This document shows, piece by piece, positions 4,945-13,003 of a stretch of 36,504 bases of DNA. A program made the translations under genes and the position numbers. Positions within the stretch are counted from its first letter, which is position 1, and each line of letters starts with the position of its first letter. The DNA is from Armatimonadota bacterium (GTDB lineage Bacteria; Armatimonadota; Fimbriimonadia; Fimbriimonadales; ATM1): NCBI GenBank assembly GCA_022567555.1, contig JADFGT010000018.1, positions 1 to 36,504 of the forward strand. Direction: 5' to 3'. The notes beneath the pieces were generated by a model. The model was not told the DNA's origin. It did no database searches and saw nothing but the letters and a program-made list of their open reading frames with translations.

Positions 4945-6657
4945 GTGAACCGGCTCTACTTCGGCAACAACCTCAAGGTCCTGCGTCAGGACATCGAAGA
5001 CGAAGTCGCAGATCTGATTTACCTCGACCCCCCGTTCAACTCGCAGAGAAACTACAACTTGCTCTTCAAACGACAAGAGGGCCAGGCCCCTGCAGCCCAG
5101 ATCATGGCTTTCGAGGACACTTGGCAATGGAGCGATCTCGCCTACGAAGAGTTCAAGATCGAAGAGCGAAACGCGTCGCTTTTCGGCCTCGTGGACTCGC
5201 TCTATCAAGTCCTTGGAAAGTGCGAGATGATGGCGTACATTGTCATGATGGCGCCTCGTCTTCTCGAATTGCATCGAAAACTAAAGAAAGCAGGCTCCCT
5301 GTATTTGCATTGCGATCCGGTCGCCAGCCATTACTTGAAAGTAATCCTTGACTCGATCTTCGGAGCTGACAGGTTCATCAACGAAATCGTATGGAAGCGA
5401 TCAAGCGCCCACAACGATACAAAGCAAGGCATGAAACGCTGCGGGCGTATCCACGACGTACTACTCTTCTACGTGAAGGGTAAGCCACATAAGTGGAACC
5501 CCCAGTACATGGATTACGACGAGGATTACTTGGAGCAAGAGTACCGACACACAACGGATGAGGGACGACACTACAAAGAAACAGACCCCACTGCAGCTAA
5601 GCCGGGCGGTGATACCGAATTCCTGTGGAGGGTCAAGCGAAGGATCGACTGCGACGAACGATGGCAGCCGGATCTCCAAGATGAGTATTTGAATCCGAAA
5701 GGGGAGTGGGAATACCGGGCCGTTCCTCCGTATAAAGGACGATACTGGGCGTACAAAAAGGAGAATCTGATCAAGTTTTGGCGCAGCGGGACACTGATCC
5801 ACCGGAAGACGGGCATGCCGAGGATCATGCAATTTGCGGATGAACAACCCGGTATCAGCCTCCAAGATATTTGGCACGATATCACACCCGTGACCGGCAA
5901 AGAGAGGCGCGGCTACCCTACGCAAAAGCCGCTCGCACTGCTGGAGAGGATCATCGCCGCCAGTACAGATGAGGGCGATCTTGTCCTCGATCCTTTTGCT
6001 GGATGTGGAACTGCCATTGTCGCCGCTGAACGAATGAACAGGAAGTGGATTGGCATTGACGTCACGTACCTTGCCATCAACGAAATCATCAACCGACTTC
6101 AGGAAGAGAAACGTGAGGGAGTTGCCCTGGAATATGAACTCCACGGCACGCCTATAGACGCCCAAGATGCACAAGTTCTCTTTGAAACCACGAGGGATCA
6201 GAACCACAAGCCGTATGAGCAGTGGGCCGTGTCATCGGTCGGCGGGCGTTGGAACGAAAAAGGCGGGGCAGACGCAGGGATTGACGGTCGTCTTGGCCTT
6301 TGGCATCCGACGACCGGCCGATACCTGGAAGCGGTGATTCAGGTGAAGGGCGGGAATGCTCTCACACTGTCCGCAGTACGTGACTTCGGCCGGGTTATCG
6401 AACGTGAAAAGGCTCCGATGGGTTTCATGATATCGCAGAAGGAGCCCACAAAGAAGATGATCCAGGAGGCCGAATCCCTTGGCTACGCGGATTGGCCGTC
6501 GAAGAAGAAGTATCCGCGATACCAAGTACGAAGCGTGAAGCAGTTATTGGAAGATCGCGAGCCGTTCGAGATCCCAGACTCCTATCGGCCGCCGCCTGAG
6601 GGGGGTGTCGGCAGGAAGAAAGACGCACGCCAATACAACCTGGGCGTCGAATCGTAA
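4945..6657 (+). CDS. Site-specific DNA methyltransferase fused to a C-terminal Mrr-like nuclease domain
   Basis: A 570-residue fusion. Residues 1-400 are an N4-cytosine/N6-adenine methyltransferase with catalytic motif IV DPPF near residue 29 (YLDPPFNS) before the SAM-binding motif I (VLDPFAGCGTAIVAAERM, about 347-364). This is the beta-class order. Residues 425-535 resemble an Mrr/PD-(D/E)xK restriction endonuclease: GGADAGIDGR with D447, then AVIQVKGG with Q466 and K468 as the Q-x-K half of the site. One protein may thus modify and cut DNA, or the nuclease-like half may serve another role. The GTG start is supported by the family N-terminus (MNRLYFGNNLKVL). It is AT-richer than its neighbours and flanked by 20-bp direct repeats, pointing to horizontal gain. 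The recognition site is unknown. Confidence 0.9.
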   Translation: MNRLYFGNNLKVLRQDIEDEVADLIYLDPPFNSQRNYNLLFKRQEGQAPAAQIMAFEDTWQWSDLAYEEFKIEERNASLFGLVDSLYQVLGKCEMMAYIVMMAPRLLELHRKLKKAGSLYLHCDPVASHYLKVILDSIFGADRFINEIVWKRSSAHNDTKQGMKRCGRIHDVLLFYVKGKPHKWNPQYMDYDEDYLEQEYRHTTDEGRHYKETDPTAAKPGGDTEFLWRVKRRIDCDERWQPDLQDEYLNPKGEWEYRAVPPYKGRYWAYKKENLIKFWRSGTLIHRKTGMPRIMQFADEQPGISLQDIWHDITPVTGKERRGYPTQKPLALLERIIAASTDEGDLVLDPFAGCGTAIVAAERMNRKWIGIDVTYLAINEIINRLQEEKREGVALEYELHGTPIDAQDAQVLFETTRDQNHKPYEQWAVSSVGGRWNEKGGADAGIDGRLGLWHPTTGRYLEAVIQVKGGNALTLSAVRDFGRVIEREKAPMGFMISQKEPTKKMIQEAESLGYADWPSKKKYPRYQVRSVKQLLEDREPFEIPDSYRPPPEGGVGRKKDARQYNLGVES

Positions 6658-6763
6658 CACGCCGCGCTGATCCACGCATGGGGCAGCATTCCCTTGCATT
6701 GAAGGGGGCACGGGCTGTCGTGACGCCGGCGCGTTTGAACCCGAAAGGCCGACCGCAACCAGC

Positions 6764-6783
6764 GATTCTCGGCGGATTCCCGG
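6764..6783 (+). repeat. 20-bp direct repeat, right copy
   Basis: An exact second copy of the 20-mer at 4874-4893, 106 nt after the methyltransferase stop codon and between it and the end of the convergent four-gene operon. Confidence 0.7.
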
Positions 6784-6809
6784 CAGCCTGGACCTGATCC
6801 CAAGGCGCT

Positions 6810-6838
6810 CACCCCGCCCGCCCGCAGGCCGCGGGGTG
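6810..6838 (-). terminator. Hairpin after the DUF3326 gene
   Basis: CACCCCGC and GCGGGGTG form an 8-bp stem with a 13-nt loop, beginning 2 nt past the stop codon of the last gene of the minus-strand operon. There is no U tract, so an intrinsic terminator is plausible but unproven; it may instead protect the 3' end. Confidence 0.45.
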
Positions 6839-6839
6839 G

Positions 6840-8189
6840 CTAAGTTACTTGTTGTTCCCTCTTGCCATGGCGTGCCGCTTCCTCTTGTAATCGCACACTC
6901 GCAAGCGGCCTGCGAACACTTCGCGGATCGAGACCCGCATTCATTGCCAACAGTAGCCCACACGCTTCCAGGTAGTTCTCGACCTGCCAGAACTGCCCGT
7001 CAGGCCATGGCAGTGTGCCGAGGTCGTTCTGCATACGGTTTCGATTCTCTTGGACGGCAATCACGGGAATGCCTTGCTCCAAAGCCGCGAGCGTCGGTAG
7101 TCCGATACAACCATCGGGGATGACAAGGCAGCTCACGTTCTCGACCCCAAGTGACGCTGGCATACCCGGGCCAGTGTCTGCCCTCACGACCTGAGGGCTC
7201 CGATGCAGCCCTTCAAGCAGGCAGTTTATGAACGTCAATGAGACCGCCTCCGCGGCCATTCTGGAGTCTACGCGTCCCGGATCCATCTCTTCCACCTTCC
7301 GTGAGTCCATCATGGGAGCGTGTGCAACGGGAAGGTCGTACGCGAGCGAAACCGCGTGTGTCAACATCGCTTCCACGCCGCCCCAAGGGTTCACCATCTC
7401 GCCTCCGCTCTTGAAATAGTCCTCGTGCCATGAATCTGGTACATCAATGACTGAAGTCAGCGCCACAGCATCATACGTGCCCTTGTGGGCATCCAGCACA
7501 GCGAAAAGGCCCTCGAGGCCTTCGATCGATCCCGCTGCTGAGCCAGTCTGAGTGAAGATAGCCTTCGTATCGAGGGGTGGGTCAAGAATAACCACGGCTG
7601 GGCACTTCATGCCATAAGTCGCGATCGCGCCGTTCACCGAGTTGATCGCGGCATCGATGAAGCGCTCATCTTGGTGTTTCTCGATGATCACCAGGACGCG
7701 ATTCGATCGCACCGACTTGAGTCTGATCGTCCCCAGGAGTAATCGCGAGAGCGTGCTACCCTCAACGTATAAGCCGTTGCCAGGGAGTGCATTGATATCA
7801 GAGGCGTTGACGACATTCGGGTGCGTGATTAGCCTGTCGCAGCACTCGCCCACGAGCTTGGCAACTGCCCCAGCGTCGCCTGCATGTCCGCCGATCTCAC
7901 ACCCGATCCCTGTCGGCACGATGAGAGCAACGTTGAAACTCGTCTCATCTTCCCACTGGCGCTGCCTTATGCCAAAGATATCCTTGAATAGCCCTGCACG
8001 GTCCGGCCAGATGTCCGTCACGAAGCCAATCTCACATCTGGCCCGCGAGCTGTCGGTCATCGTGATCGCTGCCCTTATCGGCACTTCGCGCTCCTTGGCG
8101 TGGGCTACTACTCCCGTCTTGAACTTGTCGAGAGGGGAGGACCCCCATCCGTTCAGCGCGATATCAAACTCTTTCTCGTAGACTCTCAT
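6840..8189 (-). CDS. DUF3326 family protein with N-terminal extension
   Basis: A 449-residue protein. Residues from about 88 match DUF3326, a family of unknown function known from cyanobacteria, plants and scattered bacteria: LIVPTGIGCEIGGHAGDA (89-106), ITHPNVVNASD (121-131), YVEGSTLSRLLLG, and NPWGGVEAMLTH (267-278). Residues 1-85 form an extra N-terminal segment that I do not recognise. There is no signal peptide. The ATG at 8189 has GGGAG about 8 nt upstream and lies inside the end of the upstream PLP-enzyme gene (26-nt overlap), so translation is likely coupled. It is the last gene of a four-gene operon headed by Septu-like ATPase and nuclease genes. It shares operon and base composition with them, so an accessory role is inferred, not shown. 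Confidence 0.85.
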   Translation of the reverse strand: MRVYEKEFDIALNGWGSSPLDKFKTGVVAHAKEREVPIRAAITMTDSSRARCEIGFVTDIWPDRAGLFKDIFGIRQRQWEDETSFNVALIVPTGIGCEIGGHAGDAGAVAKLVGECCDRLITHPNVVNASDINALPGNGLYVEGSTLSRLLLGTIRLKSVRSNRVLVIIEKHQDERFIDAAINSVNGAIATYGMKCPAVVILDPPLDTKAIFTQTGSAAGSIEGLEGLFAVLDAHKGTYDAVALTSVIDVPDSWHEDYFKSGGEMVNPWGGVEAMLTHAVSLAYDLPVAHAPMMDSRKVEEMDPGRVDSRMAAEAVSLTFINCLLEGLHRSPQVVRADTGPGMPASLGVENVSCLVIPDGCIGLPTLAALEQGIPVIAVQENRNRMQNDLGTLPWPDGQFWQVENYLEACGLLLAMNAGLDPRSVRRPLASVRLQEEAARHGKREQQVT

Positions 8190-9348
8190 CCTTTTTTACT
8201 CCCATTCTGCTCGCGTAGTCCTCGTATGTGAACTCACGTTCCATCACTAGCTCTCCGCTCGGCAGCCTAACGTATACGGTTGGCAGGTTGATTCCGTTGA
8301 ACATGTGGGCCTTAACGAAGCTGTAAGCCCCAACAAATTTGAAGGTTAGCCGCTCGCCGACCCGCAACTCACGGTCGAATCTATACTCGCCGAACACGTC
8401 CCCAGGCAGGCAGGTACAGCCAGCGAGTACATAAGTCCACTCTCCGTGCTCGCTTGCCTCCGCAACGGCAGGTGAATACTGATATTCGAACACTTCGGGC
8501 ACGTGATTCACACTGGTATCGACAACGGCAACGGCCTGTCCATCCGATCGTAGGATGTCCACAACGCTAGTTACGATATCACAGGAGTTGTTCACTATAC
8601 CAAAGCCCGGCTCGATGAAAACCGTCAGCCCATATCTTTCGTTTAGCCGTTGGATTACTGAGCGCAGGGGAGTAATGTCTGTAGTTCCTTCGATGATATA
8701 ACCCCCGCCAAGGTTTATCCACTCGCAAGCATGTAAGGCGTCTGGAATTAGCCCCTCACACTTGCCAACGACCGCTTCAAGCTGCGACCAGTCCTCCGAT
8801 TCGCTGTTGGAATGAATCAGCAGGCCGCTGACATTCGACACTGCGGCTTCATCTTTCTTCCATTGCTCTGCAAGGAACTCGATCGGTACACCAAGTTTCG
8901 ATGACGGGCGACACGGATCAAACTTTGGATCCTCTACAAACGACATCTGGGGATTCACTCTTAGGCCTACCGCGAAGGGCTCTTTCCGCTCGAGGCTGAA
9001 GTTCGGCCCTGCGCGCCTTAGCTGTTCCACGCTGTTGAATGCCACGTAGTCACACAAGGTTGCAATCTCAGACGTGGCCATGTCCGACAGCCCCGGCGAG
9101 GTAAAGTGAACGGTCTGATCGCCGTGGGCCAAGCCTCTCGCAAGGCGCGCCTCAAACAACGAGCTTGTCGCGAAGCCGTTAACTCCGAGGCCAACCTGCT
9201 CAACCACGCTTGCAAGAGAGCAGGCCTTCACCGCATACAGTACCTTGCTGTTTAGTCCCTCAACCGCAATAAGGAACCGGCTAACCGCATCGTTCAGATC
9301 AAGGATGTCAACAATGAATGCCGGGCTATGACAGTCGTTCGTGGCCAC
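8164..9348 (-). CDS. PLP-dependent decarboxylase, carboxynorspermidine decarboxylase (NspC)-like
   Basis: Fold-type III PLP enzyme of the alanine racemase/ornithine-DAP decarboxylase group, closest by eye to NspC. Visible features are the PLP lysine K41 in LYAVKA, GLRVNP (128-133), FDPCRPSSKLG, H179 in LLIHSNSES, LGGGY (213-217), EPG (246-248), the partner-subunit active-site loop GCTCLPGDVFGEY with C313, and GAYSFVKAHMFNGINLP. NspC normally works with a carboxynorspermidine dehydrogenase, and none is present here, so the substrate may differ. I chose GTG at 9348: it lies 2 nt after the HNH stop codon, GGAG precedes it, and the start fits the family. An ATG at 9390 would overlap the HNH gene by 40 nt. 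It is the third gene of the operon. Confidence 0.85.
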   Translation of the reverse strand: MATNDCHSPAFIVDILDLNDAVSRFLIAVEGLNSKVLYAVKACSLASVVEQVGLGVNGFATSSLFEARLARGLAHGDQTVHFTSPGLSDMATSEIATLCDYVAFNSVEQLRRAGPNFSLERKEPFAVGLRVNPQMSFVEDPKFDPCRPSSKLGVPIEFLAEQWKKDEAAVSNVSGLLIHSNSESEDWSQLEAVVGKCEGLIPDALHACEWINLGGGYIIEGTTDITPLRSVIQRLNERYGLTVFIEPGFGIVNNSCDIVTSVVDILRSDGQAVAVVDTSVNHVPEVFEYQYSPAVAEASEHGEWTYVLAGCTCLPGDVFGEYRFDRELRVGERLTFKFVGAYSFVKAHMFNGINLPTVYVRLPSGELVMEREFTYEDYASRMGVKKDESLRERV

Positions 9349-9350
9349 GC

Positions 9351-9995
9351 TCAGTCTTTCTCCAGAATGGGCAGTCCATACGACTCCCAAAGAAACCGCA
9401 AGTATGACCCGTGGGCGCCGCTGAACTTACCAGGAAGCTCCTTTGCTAAGCTCGTTTCGCTAACCGTGGAAGTACCTCCTGGCAAATGTATCAGTTCCAT
9501 CAAGTAGCGCTGAACGACGCAATAGATACCTTGTCGTGCCTCTTCTAGTGCTTCGCGGTCCAGGCGCGCATGACAGATGGTTGTCTTGCCTCTTCTTGTC
9601 ACGTAATGAATCCTGAAATCTAGGGTATCTGGGGCCCTGTATCGCAAATGACACTCGATGTTGTCAATACCCGCATCAAGGATGGGATTGGCGTCATCCC
9701 ATCGTTCGTCCTTTGTCCCATTGCAGTCTCCGCATGCGAAGTGCAGATTCGTCCACTCGTTCTTGAGCTGCGGGAAATGTTTCTGCGGCTTGCGGTGTTC
9801 GACTTGCGCCTGGCGTTTGACCGCCAATCGAGTCTCGCAATAACAGCAGATGACGCATCCTTCACCGTCACTATACATCTCGGTCAACGCCTCCCGAACG
9901 GCCGAACGATTGTAGCGGTCCGGTTCGGTGCCGTCCGCGTTGGGGCCCCGTGTCAGAATGCTCGGTACTTTCTCAGGTCTCTTTCTTCGCTGCAT
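9351..9995 (-). CDS. HNH endonuclease, PtuB-like (Septu)
   Basis: A 214-residue HNH nuclease. The zinc-binding pairs are C50-x-x-C53 (CCYCE) and C88-x-x-C91 (ACGDCN). The HNH site is EH at 66-67 (QVEHRKP), N83 (WTNLHF) and N92. The pattern C..CE ... VEH..P ... W.NL..AC..CN..K is that of PtuB in Septu defence and of the HNH partner in retron Ec78-type systems. The ATG at 9995 is preceded by AAGGAG at good spacing, whereas the in-frame ATG at 10043 has only a weaker GGAG and would overlap the ATPase gene by 71 nt. With the chosen start the overlap is 23 nt. The order ATPase then HNH matches Septu. Defence function is inferred from family and pairing. Confidence 0.87.
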   Translation of the reverse strand: MQRRKRPEKVPSILTRGPNADGTEPDRYNRSAVREALTEMYSDGEGCVICCYCETRLAVKRQAQVEHRKPQKHFPQLKNEWTNLHFACGDCNGTKDERWDDANPILDAGIDNIECHLRYRAPDTLDFRIHYVTRRGKTTICHARLDREALEEARQGIYCVVQRYLMELIHLPGGTSTVSETSLAKELPGKFSGAHGSYLRFLWESYGLPILEKD

Positions 9996-11271
9996 TGCTC
10001 TCCTTACCCGATCGGGTACGCTGGACTGCTTTGCGTAATTCATCGATCTCCGTCGTAAGCGCGATCGGATCGCTCTCGTGCAACTCTGTCATCTTGTCTC
10101 TGAGCCGTTCCAATTCCTGCTTATCCACAGGGCTAAGTGGACCGGTTTCGCGTTTTGCCAATAGCTTACGGTAGGGCTCAATGACCTGCTGGACGTAAGC
10201 CGGAGATCTCAGGCTAGATAAGCCCATCTGATAGTACATTCCCGCAGGTTGCCATCCAAACGGCTGGGCCCTCTCCACCCCATCTTTCTCCAAGAAATAG
10301 ACTGTTGACCCTTCGCAGCTGGCAGCAATTAGGGGTGAGTGGGTAGCGACGATAAACTGAACCTTCGGAAAGCTCTCGGTGAGCCGTTGAAGAACGGTCA
10401 TCTGCCACTTAGGGTGGAGGTGCTGTTCAATCTCGTCGATAAGAACGATGCCTCTCACATCAGTTGCCGAACTGCCGCGTCGATAGCCCCTATATAGGAA
10501 CCACCACGAAATCAGGTCGAGCACCCAGGTGAACGTTGCGCGATACCCATCTCCAAGTTCCGCCAACTGCACCGGTACACCGCGCCGAATGACTTGGATT
10601 CCAGGTGCGCCAAGCTTGATCCTCGTATCCTCGTCTAGGTCAATGATGTTCGCAAGGAGCGACGTGATGCTCTCAAGCATTTCGGCGCCAGCCTTTGCCT
10701 TCTTTCTCTTGTCAGGCTGGTCCTCCTCGGCAGCGCGAATCAATCGCCGCATCGCCAGTTCCGGATTCTGCATGTGGGCGTCATACACAAACAGTGGATA
10801 GACAGCGTCAATGAGGCGGTACTCTATGTAGTCCTCCGAACCTTCAACTCTTATTCCGGCCCCGTAGGCACTGGCGAACAAATCCTCCCATGGGAATCCT
10901 TCGGGCTCCAGCTTTGGCCATTTTCCAGAACGCTTGTTGAATTTCTGCGTTAGCTGCGATAGCTGTTCGAACGCCTTTTCGTTCCGCAATGTAGTGCTGA
11001 TTCGGTAGGGTCCTTCTGTCTCCTGCAACTCTACTTTTATGATGCCCTGAGGCGCATCCTTAGCGCGGTTGATGAATCGTCCGGACAGTTCTCTAAGAAG
11101 TCCAGCGGCACTCGATTCATCGCACAATCCCATAGCCAAACTACGAAGGATTGTCGTTTTACCGGCCCCATTATCACCGTAGATCAACGTCACGCCCGGC
11201 TTGCCGCCGAAGTCAAGGGTTAGGTCTTCGAAGCACCGGATACTCGTAAGTATCAGCTTTGAGATATACAT
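9973..11271 (-). CDS. AAA/ABC-type ATPase, PtuA-like (Septu), first gene of a four-gene operon
   Basis: A 432-residue SMC/ABC-like ATPase of the AAA_21/OLD-related kind. MYISKLILTSIRCFEDLTLDF begins the domain; Walker A is GDNGAGKTT (32-40); a signature-like LAELGDGYRATF follows; Walker B is GIVLIDEIEQHLHP (about 275-285); the H-loop is FIVATHSPL (about 310). The C-terminal 90 residues are charged and helical. No TOPRIM domain is visible, so it is not a full OLD nuclease; the nuclease is the separate HNH protein encoded next. The ATG at 11271 has GGAG 8 nt upstream. An open frame continues upstream to 11724, but that part is repeat-derived and not protein-like. In Septu, PtuA and PtuB assemble into an anti-phage complex; the same is inferred here. 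Confidence 0.87.
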   Translation of the reverse strand: MYISKLILTSIRCFEDLTLDFGGKPGVTLIYGDNGAGKTTILRSLAMGLCDESSAAGLLRELSGRFINRAKDAPQGIIKVELQETEGPYRISTTLRNEKAFEQLSQLTQKFNKRSGKWPKLEPEGFPWEDLFASAYGAGIRVEGSEDYIEYRLIDAVYPLFVYDAHMQNPELAMRRLIRAAEEDQPDKRKKAKAGAEMLESITSLLANIIDLDEDTRIKLGAPGIQVIRRGVPVQLAELGDGYRATFTWVLDLISWWFLYRGYRRGSSATDVRGIVLIDEIEQHLHPKWQMTVLQRLTESFPKVQFIVATHSPLIAASCEGSTVYFLEKDGVERAQPFGWQPAGMYYQMGLSSLRSPAYVQQVIEPYRKLLAKRETGPLSPVDKQELERLRDKMTELHESDPIALTTEIDELRKAVQRTRSGKESNAAKKET

Positions 11272-11344
11272 GAGCGCCGCTCCAGGATGCCTAACGATAC
11301 CCCGCGCGTCCGCATGAGACACTCTGCGTCCTCCATGATGGACC

Positions 11345-11378
11345 CTCGAGCGACCTCTGAGAGTCGGGGGGATGGCGG
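11345..11378 (+). repeat. 34-bp direct repeat, copy A
   Basis: Begins CTCGAGCGACCTCTGAGAG and continues into a G run; it matches 11618-11651 with a few substitutions. Both copies lie upstream of the Septu-like operon. Confidence 0.6.
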
Positions 11379-11594
11379 CAGCGGCTCCGGTCCGATTGGC
11401 GGGATACGGCGGGGTCCTTGGGGGCCCGGGTTGCTCGTCCGGCTTCGCGATCGTCAGGCCGGGGGTGAGGAGGGACCGGAGGCCGTGGGGGTCGTCGTTG
11501 GTGCATTCGTCCCCCGGGATGAAGAAGATCAGGGCCATGACCACGGTGCCCCGCGCCGGTCGTTGGGCCCGAAACGGGCCTGACACGGCCGCCA

Positions 11595-11623
11595 CTCGAG
11601 GTTTTTGAACGTAAAACCTCGAG
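11595..11623. repeat. Perfect hairpin CTCGAGGTTTT, 11-bp stem
   Basis: CTCGAGGTTTT and AAAACCTCGAG pair perfectly around a 7-nt loop. The right arm runs into the second 34-bp repeat. Confidence 0.6.
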
Positions 11624-11651
11624 CGGTCTCCGAGAGTCGGGGGGATTGCGG
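11618..11651 (+). repeat. 34-bp direct repeat, copy B
   Basis: Begins CTCGAGCGGTCTCCGAGAG; it is the counterpart of 11345-11378, 273 bp away. Confidence 0.6.
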
Positions 11652-11708
11652 AGGGATTCCGGGGGATGCCGGCGAGAATCAAGGGACTATTTGAATTATT
11701 CACCTCTC

Positions 11709-11918
11709 TACTCCGAGTAGGCACCTGCCTACTCCGAGTATCCCCCTGCCTACTCCGAGCATTCCCCTGCCTACTCCGAGTATCCCCCTGCCTACTCCGA
11801 GCATTCCCCTGCCTACTCCGAGTATCCCCCTGCCTACTCCGAGCATTCCCCTGCCTACTCGGAGTATTCCCCTGCCTACTCGGAGTATTCCCCTGCCTAC
11901 TCCGAGCATTCCCCTGCC
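11709..11918 (+). repeat. 21-bp tandem repeat, ten units, each with a TACTCCGAGTA near-palindrome
   Basis: Ten head-to-tail 21-bp units with no spacers. Each begins with a version of TACTCCGAGTA (palindromic except for the central base) and mostly ends CCCCTGCC. From unit 2 to unit 7 two variants alternate strictly (GTATCCCC and GCATTCCC), giving a 42-bp higher-order period. Units 8 and 9 carry the core as TACTCGGAGTA. The array also reads as an open frame of seven-residue repeats, but without start signals. It could be a protein-binding array or simply a minisatellite. Confidence 0.85.
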
Positions 11919-11947
11919 GGACTCGGACAGGGAAGGGGCAGATTTCG

Positions 11948-11968
11948 GTTTTCAGTTTTCAGTTTTCG
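11948..11968 (+). repeat. GTTTTC[AG] triplicate repeat
   Basis: Three adjacent 7-bp units (GTTTTCA, GTTTTCA, GTTTTCG), AT-rich compared with the flanks. Confidence 0.5.
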
Positions 11969-12205
11969 GTAGGGAGGGGACGATTGACGAGAATCGCTTG
12001 CCATTCTCGGAGAGTCCCCTGCTGATCGCGACCATCCCCCTGGATCGAACCGCCTGCCGGCCGAAGACGCGCACTGACGCTCCCCGGCGGGCGGGGTGGC
12101 CGGCGAGGCAGCCCTGGCCCCTCGACGCGAGCCCGAGGCGCCCCCTCACAAGGGCGGGAGTGTATAGCGTATAGTCATCTATGCTAAGGGTCCCCGCGTG
12201 ACGGC

Positions 12206-12217
12206 CTGCGTACGCAG
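12206..12217. promoter_or_regulatory. 12-bp perfect palindrome, possible operator
   Basis: CTGCGTACGCAG lies 30 bp before the ATG of the isochorismatase-like gene and about 30 bp after a TATAGT hexamer (12170-12175). Its position suits a repressor site, but no regulator is encoded nearby and the -35 region is not convincing. Confidence 0.3.
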
Positions 12218-12247
12218 AGACCATCTTGCGAACCTGTGAGCAACAAA

Positions 12248-13003
12248 ATGAAAACACATAATCAAATAATCTCGTTATCCGCCGCAGCGGCGCTCATCGC
12301 CGTTGCCCAAGCCGCAAACGCACAACTTCCCGACCCAGGCGTCGAGGTCGTTGCAGGACGGACGGCGCTCGTGATCACCGACCCGCAGAATGACTTTCTG
12401 AGCCCTAAGGGAGTTACTTGGGGCGTCGTCGGCGAGAGCGTAACGGAGAACAACACGGTCGCGAACATCGAGACCCTGTTGCGCACCGCCAAAGCGAACG
12501 CCATTCCGGTGTTCATCTCGCCCCACTACTACTATCCAACCGATCATGGCTGGAAATTCGAAGGCGCGCTCGAGCGACTGATGCACGACATCGGCATGTT
12601 CGACCGTAAGGGGTCCCTGTCGCTGGAAGGGTTCGAGGGATCGGGGGCGGACTGGCTGGCAAGCTACAAGAAGTACATTGAAGACGGGAAGACCATCGTG
12701 GTCAGCCCGCACAAGGTGTATGGCCCCGAATCGAACGACTTGGCGCTGCAACTGAGGAAGCGCGGAATAGACAAAGTCATCTTAGCGGGCATGTCCGCTA
12801 ACCTGTGCGTAGAGTCCCACATGAGGGAGTTGCTGGAGCAGGGTTTCGAGGTCGCCGTGGTCAAGGACGCGACGGCGGCAGCCAAACTGCCGGGGTTGGA
12901 CGGCTACGCAGCCGCCTTGATCAACTTCCGCTTCATTGCGAATACGGTCTGGACGACTGAGGAGGCCGTCGCGGCGATAAAGAAGGGAACGGCGAAGAGA
13001 TAG
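12248..13003 (+). CDS. Exported isochorismatase-like cysteine hydrolase
   Basis: Cysteine hydrolase of the isochorismatase/nicotinamidase superfamily. The catalytic triad is visible: D45 in LVITDPQNDF, K156 in SPHKVYG and C187 in GMSANLCVESHMREL. The first 25 or so residues (MKTHNQIISLSAAAALIAVAQAANA) look like a cleavable signal peptide ending AQAANA, so the enzyme is probably periplasmic or secreted, which is unusual for this mostly cytoplasmic family. The substrate is unknown. I chose ATG at 12248 because it starts the signal peptide directly; GTG at 12236 is an alternative that adds MSNK. No strong ribosome binding site is seen. The gene stands alone and is followed by the recurring hairpin at 13025. 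Confidence 0.87.
   Translation: MKTHNQIISLSAAAALIAVAQAANAQLPDPGVEVVAGRTALVITDPQNDFLSPKGVTWGVVGESVTENNTVANIETLLRTAKANAIPVFISPHYYYPTDHGWKFEGALERLMHDIGMFDRKGSLSLEGFEGSGADWLASYKKYIEDGKTIVVSPHKVYGPESNDLALQLRKRGIDKVILAGMSANLCVESHMRELLEQGFEVAVVKDATAAAKLPGLDGYAAALINFRFIANTVWTTEEAVAAIKKGTAKR

Follow-up and report, generated by a model that had tools for sequence, protein, structure and literature searches.

We analysed a stretch of 36,504 nucleotides from an Armatimonadota bacterium (assembly GCA_022567555.1, contig JADFGT010000018.1; hereafter the window), which contains four consecutive genes on the minus strand between positions 11271 and 6840. They encode a PtuA-like ATPase, a PtuB-like HNH nuclease, an NspC-like pyridoxal 5'-phosphate (PLP) decarboxylase and a DUF3326 protein. 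The successive junctions are a 23-nt overlap (PtuA/PtuB), a 2-nt gap (PtuB/decarboxylase) and a 26-nt overlap (decarboxylase/DUF3326). Our analysis of open reading frames reproduced exactly the genes, strand, coordinates and junctions given in a first-pass annotation of this DNA, and the existence of a four-gene operon is well supported. Judging from the sequences, we see about an even chance that the operon is a four-gene variant of the Septu system, in which PtuAB would be the effector and an amine product of the decarboxylase and DUF3326 would govern PtuAB.

Recurrence and phylogeny of the four-gene order

The order PtuA-PtuB-decarboxylase-DUF3326 recurred in distant genomes, where we found it in nine loci besides the window, spread over six further phylum-level lineages; it was invariant in all 10. 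The nine loci are from Phycisphaerales (L008), Planctomycetota (L010, L021, L072), Alphaproteobacteria (L012), Bacteroidetes (L019), Zixibacteria (L036), Dadabacteria (L039) and 'Proteobacteria' (L059). When the window is included, four of the ten linked loci have an NspC-like decarboxylase and six have a decarboxylase resembling S-adenosylmethionine decarboxylase (AdoMetDC).

The ten linked PtuAs formed a single clade (support 100/99.5) in a tree with 27 unlinked PtuAs of the window's own phylum, and this clade persisted after two Planctomycetota PtuAs had been added. The DUF3326s of the same ten loci did not form one clade (9 changes on the tree; approximately unbiased (AU) test, p=6e-5), which rejects a single origin of the union of PtuAB and DUF3326 through common descent of DUF3326. 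Moreover, the decarboxylase type switches at least three times on the tree of linked PtuAs. Since the PtuA clade is monophyletic while DUF3326 is not and the decarboxylase is swapped, this Septu subclade apparently requires a decarboxylase, of either type, together with DUF3326. It would be difficult to understand why the partnership persists through such exchanges of its enzymes if PtuAB did not depend on what they produce. Hence, three findings support the suggestion of the first-pass annotation that a Septu-like pair is partnered with a decarboxylase and DUF3326: the gene order recurs, the linked PtuAs are monophyletic, and the decarboxylase has been replaced by a non-orthologous one. They exclude its alternative of two modules that merely abut.

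A PtuA search that was blind to DUF3326, in 291 genomes of the window's own phylum, found members of the linked clade in G000 and G282 only. Among 392 genomes of the phylum of G291, only two loci, both linked, scored in the range of the clade, and the next two PtuA matches were unlinked and about 26% identical. Linked PtuA was not found in a search of viral contigs and plasmids. One Armatimonadota genome carries two remnants (L184, G282:C11:86000-94000; L185, G282:C49:1-6000), in which inserted genes separate a truncated PtuA of the clade from fragments of DUF3326. In the alphaproteobacterial locus, a gene with a Tle1-like phospholipase domain (L012:11553-12713) lies directly downstream of the four-gene operon.

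Sequence features of PtuA and PtuB

The PtuA-like ABC/AAA ATPase (432 aa; 9973-11271, minus strand) was identified with PADLOC and Pfam profiles, matches PADLOC PtuA1 (E=9e-51) and belongs to the DUF3326-linked PtuA clade. It contains a Walker A motif GDNGAGKT (K38), a Walker B motif LIDEIEQHLH (D279/E280) and an ATHSP motif with His311; K38 and D279/E280 are invariant among the DUF3326-linked PtuAs. The PtuB-like HNH nuclease (214 aa; 9351-9995, minus strand), identified with the same two sets of profiles, has an ATG start with GGAG 6 nt upstream and matches PADLOC PtuB1 (E=4e-25). In window numbering, C50xxC53, E66-H67, N83 and C88xxC91-N92 are invariant in 10/10 linked PtuBs, with H67 and N83 belonging to the HNH motif. 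The predicted structure of PtuB is weak (pLDDT 66), and its top fold matches in the PDB are PtuB chains.

The catalytic motifs of PtuA (Walker A/B) and PtuB (HNH) in the window are thus intact, and the intact positions are those required in the Escherichia coli Septu EcB88 (PMC13096335). By sequence criteria, i.e. a Walker ATPase with an adjacent HNH nuclease, the PtuAB half of the operon classifies as Septu.

The decarboxylase-DUF3326 pair across genomes

A scan of GTDB genomes yielded 80 full-length DUF3326 loci from many phyla, of which two were truncated by contig ends and 78 could be scored. A decarboxylase adjoins DUF3326 in 76 of the 78 scorable loci. It is the NspC-like PLP enzyme in 41 loci, and in the other 35 a small, pyruvoyl-dependent protein of the AdoMetDC family (PF02675), which is non-homologous to the NspC-like enzyme. 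The decarboxylase type switches at least seven times on the DUF3326 tree. Two unrelated folds in one slot imply that the same chemistry is carried out there, namely decarboxylation of an amino acid or conjugate. At one of the two full-length DUF3326 genes without a nearby decarboxylase (L001/L026), the neighbour looks asparagine-synthetase-like by eye.

The AdoMetDC-like proteins (L059:1428-1799 and 34 other genome loci) are a distinct, DUF3326-tied subfamily. They retain the equivalents of S63, H68 and C83, and have LD in place of the WPE motif of true AdoMetDC. Loss of the Pro after the catalytic His (WPE) marks neofunctionalised arginine and ornithine decarboxylases (Li et al. 2023, PMC10407285). 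The subfamily may act on ornithine or arginine, or on a novel amino acid. Because both decarboxylase types are unlike their namesakes and the AdoMetDC-like set has lost this Pro, L-ornithine or L-arginine, which would yield putrescine or agmatine, would be the simplest shared substrate.

The first-pass annotation had held that a decarboxylase-DUF3326 pair found mostly apart from PtuA/B and near metabolic genes would speak against the link. In part this was indeed found: PtuAB lies upstream in 9 of the 80 genome loci of DUF3326, which marks the pair as a general module. Upstream of the pair are PtuA-PtuB (nine loci besides the window, immediately adjacent), an ATP-grasp ligase of the glutathionylspermidine (GSP)-synthase type with DUF350 and DUF1190 (20 loci), an unassigned membrane protein (5 loci), a PRMT-like methyltransferase with a cyclase-like/TPR protein (2-3 loci), or others. 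In Dehalococcoidia, PspA/DUF4178/DUF350 and glutamine-synthetase-like or AMP-ligase genes lie downstream. Polyamine genes accompanying PspA, DUF350 and ATP-grasp ligases have been noted before (PMC11237479), in a paper that does not name DUF3326. Since the pair mostly occurs without PtuAB, either with GSP-synthase-like ligases or in phages, it appears to be a portable amine-pathway module that is not specific to defence. An amine metabolite is a plausible product of the two enzymes: both decarboxylases come from polyamine-enzyme families, and an amine fits because the other partners of the pair (GSP-synthase-type ATP-grasp ligase, glutamine-synthetase-type enzyme) are amine-ligating.

Operons of DUF350-DUF1190-GSP_synth-(AdoMetDC-like or NspC-like)-DUF3326 occur in L020, L023, L025, L031, L035, L070, L081 and other Rhodospirillales loci, in a context resembling envelope stress. 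A membrane protein of about 400 aa without Pfam match precedes the pair in several phyla (L030, L034, L037, L041, L060). The loci with a PRMT-like methyltransferase and a cyclase-like/TPR protein upstream (L051, L054, L079) are a possible further signalling or conflict system.

The pair in phages

IMG/VR contained 66 DUF3326 loci (L088-L153). In at least 51 of these, an AdoMetDC-like gene lies no further than about 2 kb away, in most cases immediately upstream. The phage contigs with the pair include contigs of 100-550 kb, and phage genes surround it. Most phage DUF3326s are a short form that lacks the N-terminal domain. PtuAB was present in none of the 66 loci, and DNA-modification genes were not among the clusters most shared between them. 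DUF3326 was not found in public phage and plasmid records, and a PHROGs search with DUF3326 and NspC gave nothing useful. Phages are known to carry SpeD-derived ornithine and arginine decarboxylases (PMC9992855). The combination of an AdoMetDC-like gene and DUF3326 is a phage auxiliary gene pair that has so far not been described.

The NspC-like decarboxylase and DUF3326 of the window

The decarboxylase of the window (394 aa, GTG start; 8164-9348, minus strand) was identified with Pfam and NCBIfam profiles as an NspC-like PLP enzyme of the alanine-racemase fold, and has both Pfam domains of group IV PLP decarboxylases. Its best NCBIfam match is nspC TIGR01047 (E=1e-74), at 251 bits, which is under the cut-off of 409 bits. 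The PLP Lys and the catalytic Cys are each kept in 39/39 DUF3326-linked NspC-like enzymes. In contrast, the Glu of the EPGE motif is present in 4/4 solved carboxynorspermidine decarboxylases (CANSDCs) and in 0/39 of the linked enzymes. The VKxN motif of the solved CANSDCs is also lost, with VK-A instead in 38/39. The name 'NspC-like' in the first-pass annotation was therefore right as to fold family and wrong if read as carboxynorspermidine decarboxylase, since residues common to all solved CANSDCs are altered.

The host genome (2.9 Mb, 91.5% complete) encodes two decarboxylases of the alanine-racemase fold, one NspC-like and one that reads as LysA. AdoMetDC and spermidine synthase were not found in this 91.5% complete genome, and its two saccharopine-dehydrogenase homologues, judged by eye, are unlike carboxynorspermidine dehydrogenase (CANSDH). 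The window decarboxylase is therefore unlikely to be a housekeeping polyamine enzyme. Norspermidine biosynthesis via NspC was rejected on the sub-cut-off score, the altered active-site motifs, the missing AdoMetDC and spermidine synthase, and the homologues that are not CANSDH-like.

The DUF3326 protein (449 aa; 6840-8189, minus strand), identified with Pfam, consists of a PF11805 core (87-425) and an N-terminal domain of about 86 aa. It matches PF11805 with E=4e-88 and 296 bits (gathering threshold 25 bits). Across the family 45 columns are invariant, with many His, Asp, Asn and Glu residues among them, and the window protein keeps 45/45. Its AlphaFold model is confident (pLDDT 88.6, pTM 0.90). 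DUF3326 is probably an enzyme. Within the window's own phylum, DUF3326 is present in just 4 of the 291 genomes.

Genomic surroundings of the operon

The operon is flanked by an isochorismatase-family gene and a DNA methylase. The N6/N4 DNA methylase (4945-6657, plus strand) is convergent with the operon and has a C-terminal restriction-endonuclease-like region, for which the match (Mrr/NA-iREase1-like) is weak. This part of the window may be a small defence island. A 21-bp tandem repeat of 10.6 copies (11697-11918) separates the operon from the divergent isochorismatase-family gene. We regard the repeat unit as a dispersed repeat, because it was found on three other contigs of the genome.

Possible role of the operon

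In the four-gene Septu variant that we propose, PtuA (ATPase) and PtuB (HNH nuclease) would be the part that cleaves nucleic acid. The decarboxylase and DUF3326 would form a two-enzyme pathway from a basic amino acid or amino-acid conjugate to an amine-containing small molecule. This compound would be made constantly, and would either restrain PtuAB or mark nucleic acid as safe. Infection would disturb the compound or its producers, upon which the nuclease would be released. The amine nature of the product, its action on PtuAB and the direction of control are features that we infer. We favour constitutive restraint or self-marking over an alarm, since a sensor domain is lacking in the enzymes and the pathway is encoded by phages as well. 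Several points weigh against the proposal. The majority of the decarboxylase-DUF3326 pairs lack PtuAB, and the target of the product need not be PtuAB. The unlinked PtuAs in the tree were drawn from two phyla only. Furthermore, the DUF3326 model had no fold match in the PDB or BFVD below E=0.001, and a profile search of the PDB was also empty.

The two enzymes might instead modify DNA or tRNA with an amine, or prepare such a modification. PtuAB would then cut the unmodified form, and phages would carry the pair in order to shield or adjust the nucleic acids of their own. Nucleic acid is a known target of PtuAB: Septu EcB88 cleaves tRNA-Tyr (PMC13096335). Phages indeed carry the AdoMetDC-like gene with DUF3326, and DUF3326, although unclassified, resembles an enzyme and has polar residues that are strictly conserved. 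However, a nucleic-acid-binding domain is recognisable in neither enzyme, and the clusters most shared between phage loci include no DNA-modification genes. Base modification is also hard to reconcile with the other places where the pair is found, next to genes for ATP-grasp ligases and the membrane-stress genes PspA and DUF350. We consider this explanation unlikely.

Similarly doubtful is the idea that PtuAB is an ordinary Septu, and that the decarboxylase and DUF3326 are an independent metabolic or stress module that uses the same promoter, the association being passed on as a transferred cassette. Septu elsewhere requires ptuA and ptuB only (PMC13096335), and the pair is mostly found without PtuAB, beside polyamine and envelope-stress genes (cf. 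the PspA survey, PMC11237479). Yet the linked PtuAs are one clade whereas the DUF3326s are not and the decarboxylases have been swapped, while a passive cassette would retain its own enzymes. The invariant gene order in 10 loci argues in the same direction.

A role for the phage pair in counter-defence would extend the proposed Septu variant. PtuAB would be guarded by a new amine, being restrained by it or sparing targets marked with it, and phages with the AdoMetDC-like gene and DUF3326 would make the same compound and could silence the defence. This combination of claims seems to us quite unlikely as a whole.

Signalling defences usually place a small-molecule pathway beside an effector, and the operon in the window has this layout. 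The enzymes could thus make an infection alarm signal that activates PtuAB, as in CBASS or Thoeris. We regard this as improbable: neither enzyme has a sensor domain, and phages encode the pathway and so would set off the alarm. That phages carry the pair without PtuAB is more in keeping with a product that does the phage no harm, or benefits it, than with an alarm. Finally, although the operon lies on a single contig of a metagenome-assembled genome, chance adjacency or an assembly artefact can be dismissed, since the order is repeated in nine independent assemblies of other phylum-level lineages and the PtuA tree shows a clade-level association.

If our proposal is true, a Septu-type system would for the first time be seen coupled to small-molecule biosynthesis; the literature searched contained no earlier example. 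It would also offer a way into DUF3326, a widespread family without assigned function that is almost always accompanied by a decarboxylase, which has one or the other of two unrelated folds. With the same pair present in phages, defence and counter-defence based on a metabolite could be tested directly.

Comparison with known systems

The literature that we searched contained no Septu linked to a decarboxylase, polyamines or DUF3326, in agreement with the first-pass annotation, which knew of no PtuA/PtuB system with a PLP decarboxylase and DUF3326. The operon resembles type I Septu in its PtuA-like Walker ATPase and PtuB-like HNH nuclease, which are adjacent, in the same order and both matched by PADLOC. 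It differs by the addition of two metabolic enzymes and by a PtuA that falls in a separate clade. Septu type II, or retron I-A (Ec78, Eco7), has related ATPase and HNH effectors, whereas the accessory genes in the window encode enzymes of amino-acid metabolism. A retron was rejected: the neighbouring genes include no reverse transcriptase, and positions 6500-12500 gave no Rfam match (msr-msd).

The window decarboxylase shares with NspC/CANSDC the fold family, PLP lysine, catalytic Cys and overall length, but it scores under the TIGR01047 cut-off, has lost the EPGE Glu and comes from a genome without AdoMetDC or spermidine synthase. The AdoMetDC-like decarboxylase of other loci differs from bona fide AdoMetDC in having LD for WPE (criterion of PMC10407285). 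This swapped-in enzyme resembles neofunctionalised SpeD, the pyruvoyl-dependent ornithine and arginine decarboxylases, in keeping the S63/H68/C83 equivalents without the AdoMetDC Pro, and both occur in bacteria and phages. It differs from them in being tied to DUF3326, a family absent from the main text of the papers on neofunctionalised SpeD. The membrane-stress operons of DUF350-DUF1190-GSP-synthase (YjfLMC-like) have the same decarboxylase-DUF3326 pair in Rhodospirillales. Unlike the operon in the window, they have no nuclease or PtuA, and membrane proteins and an ATP-grasp ligase occupy that place.

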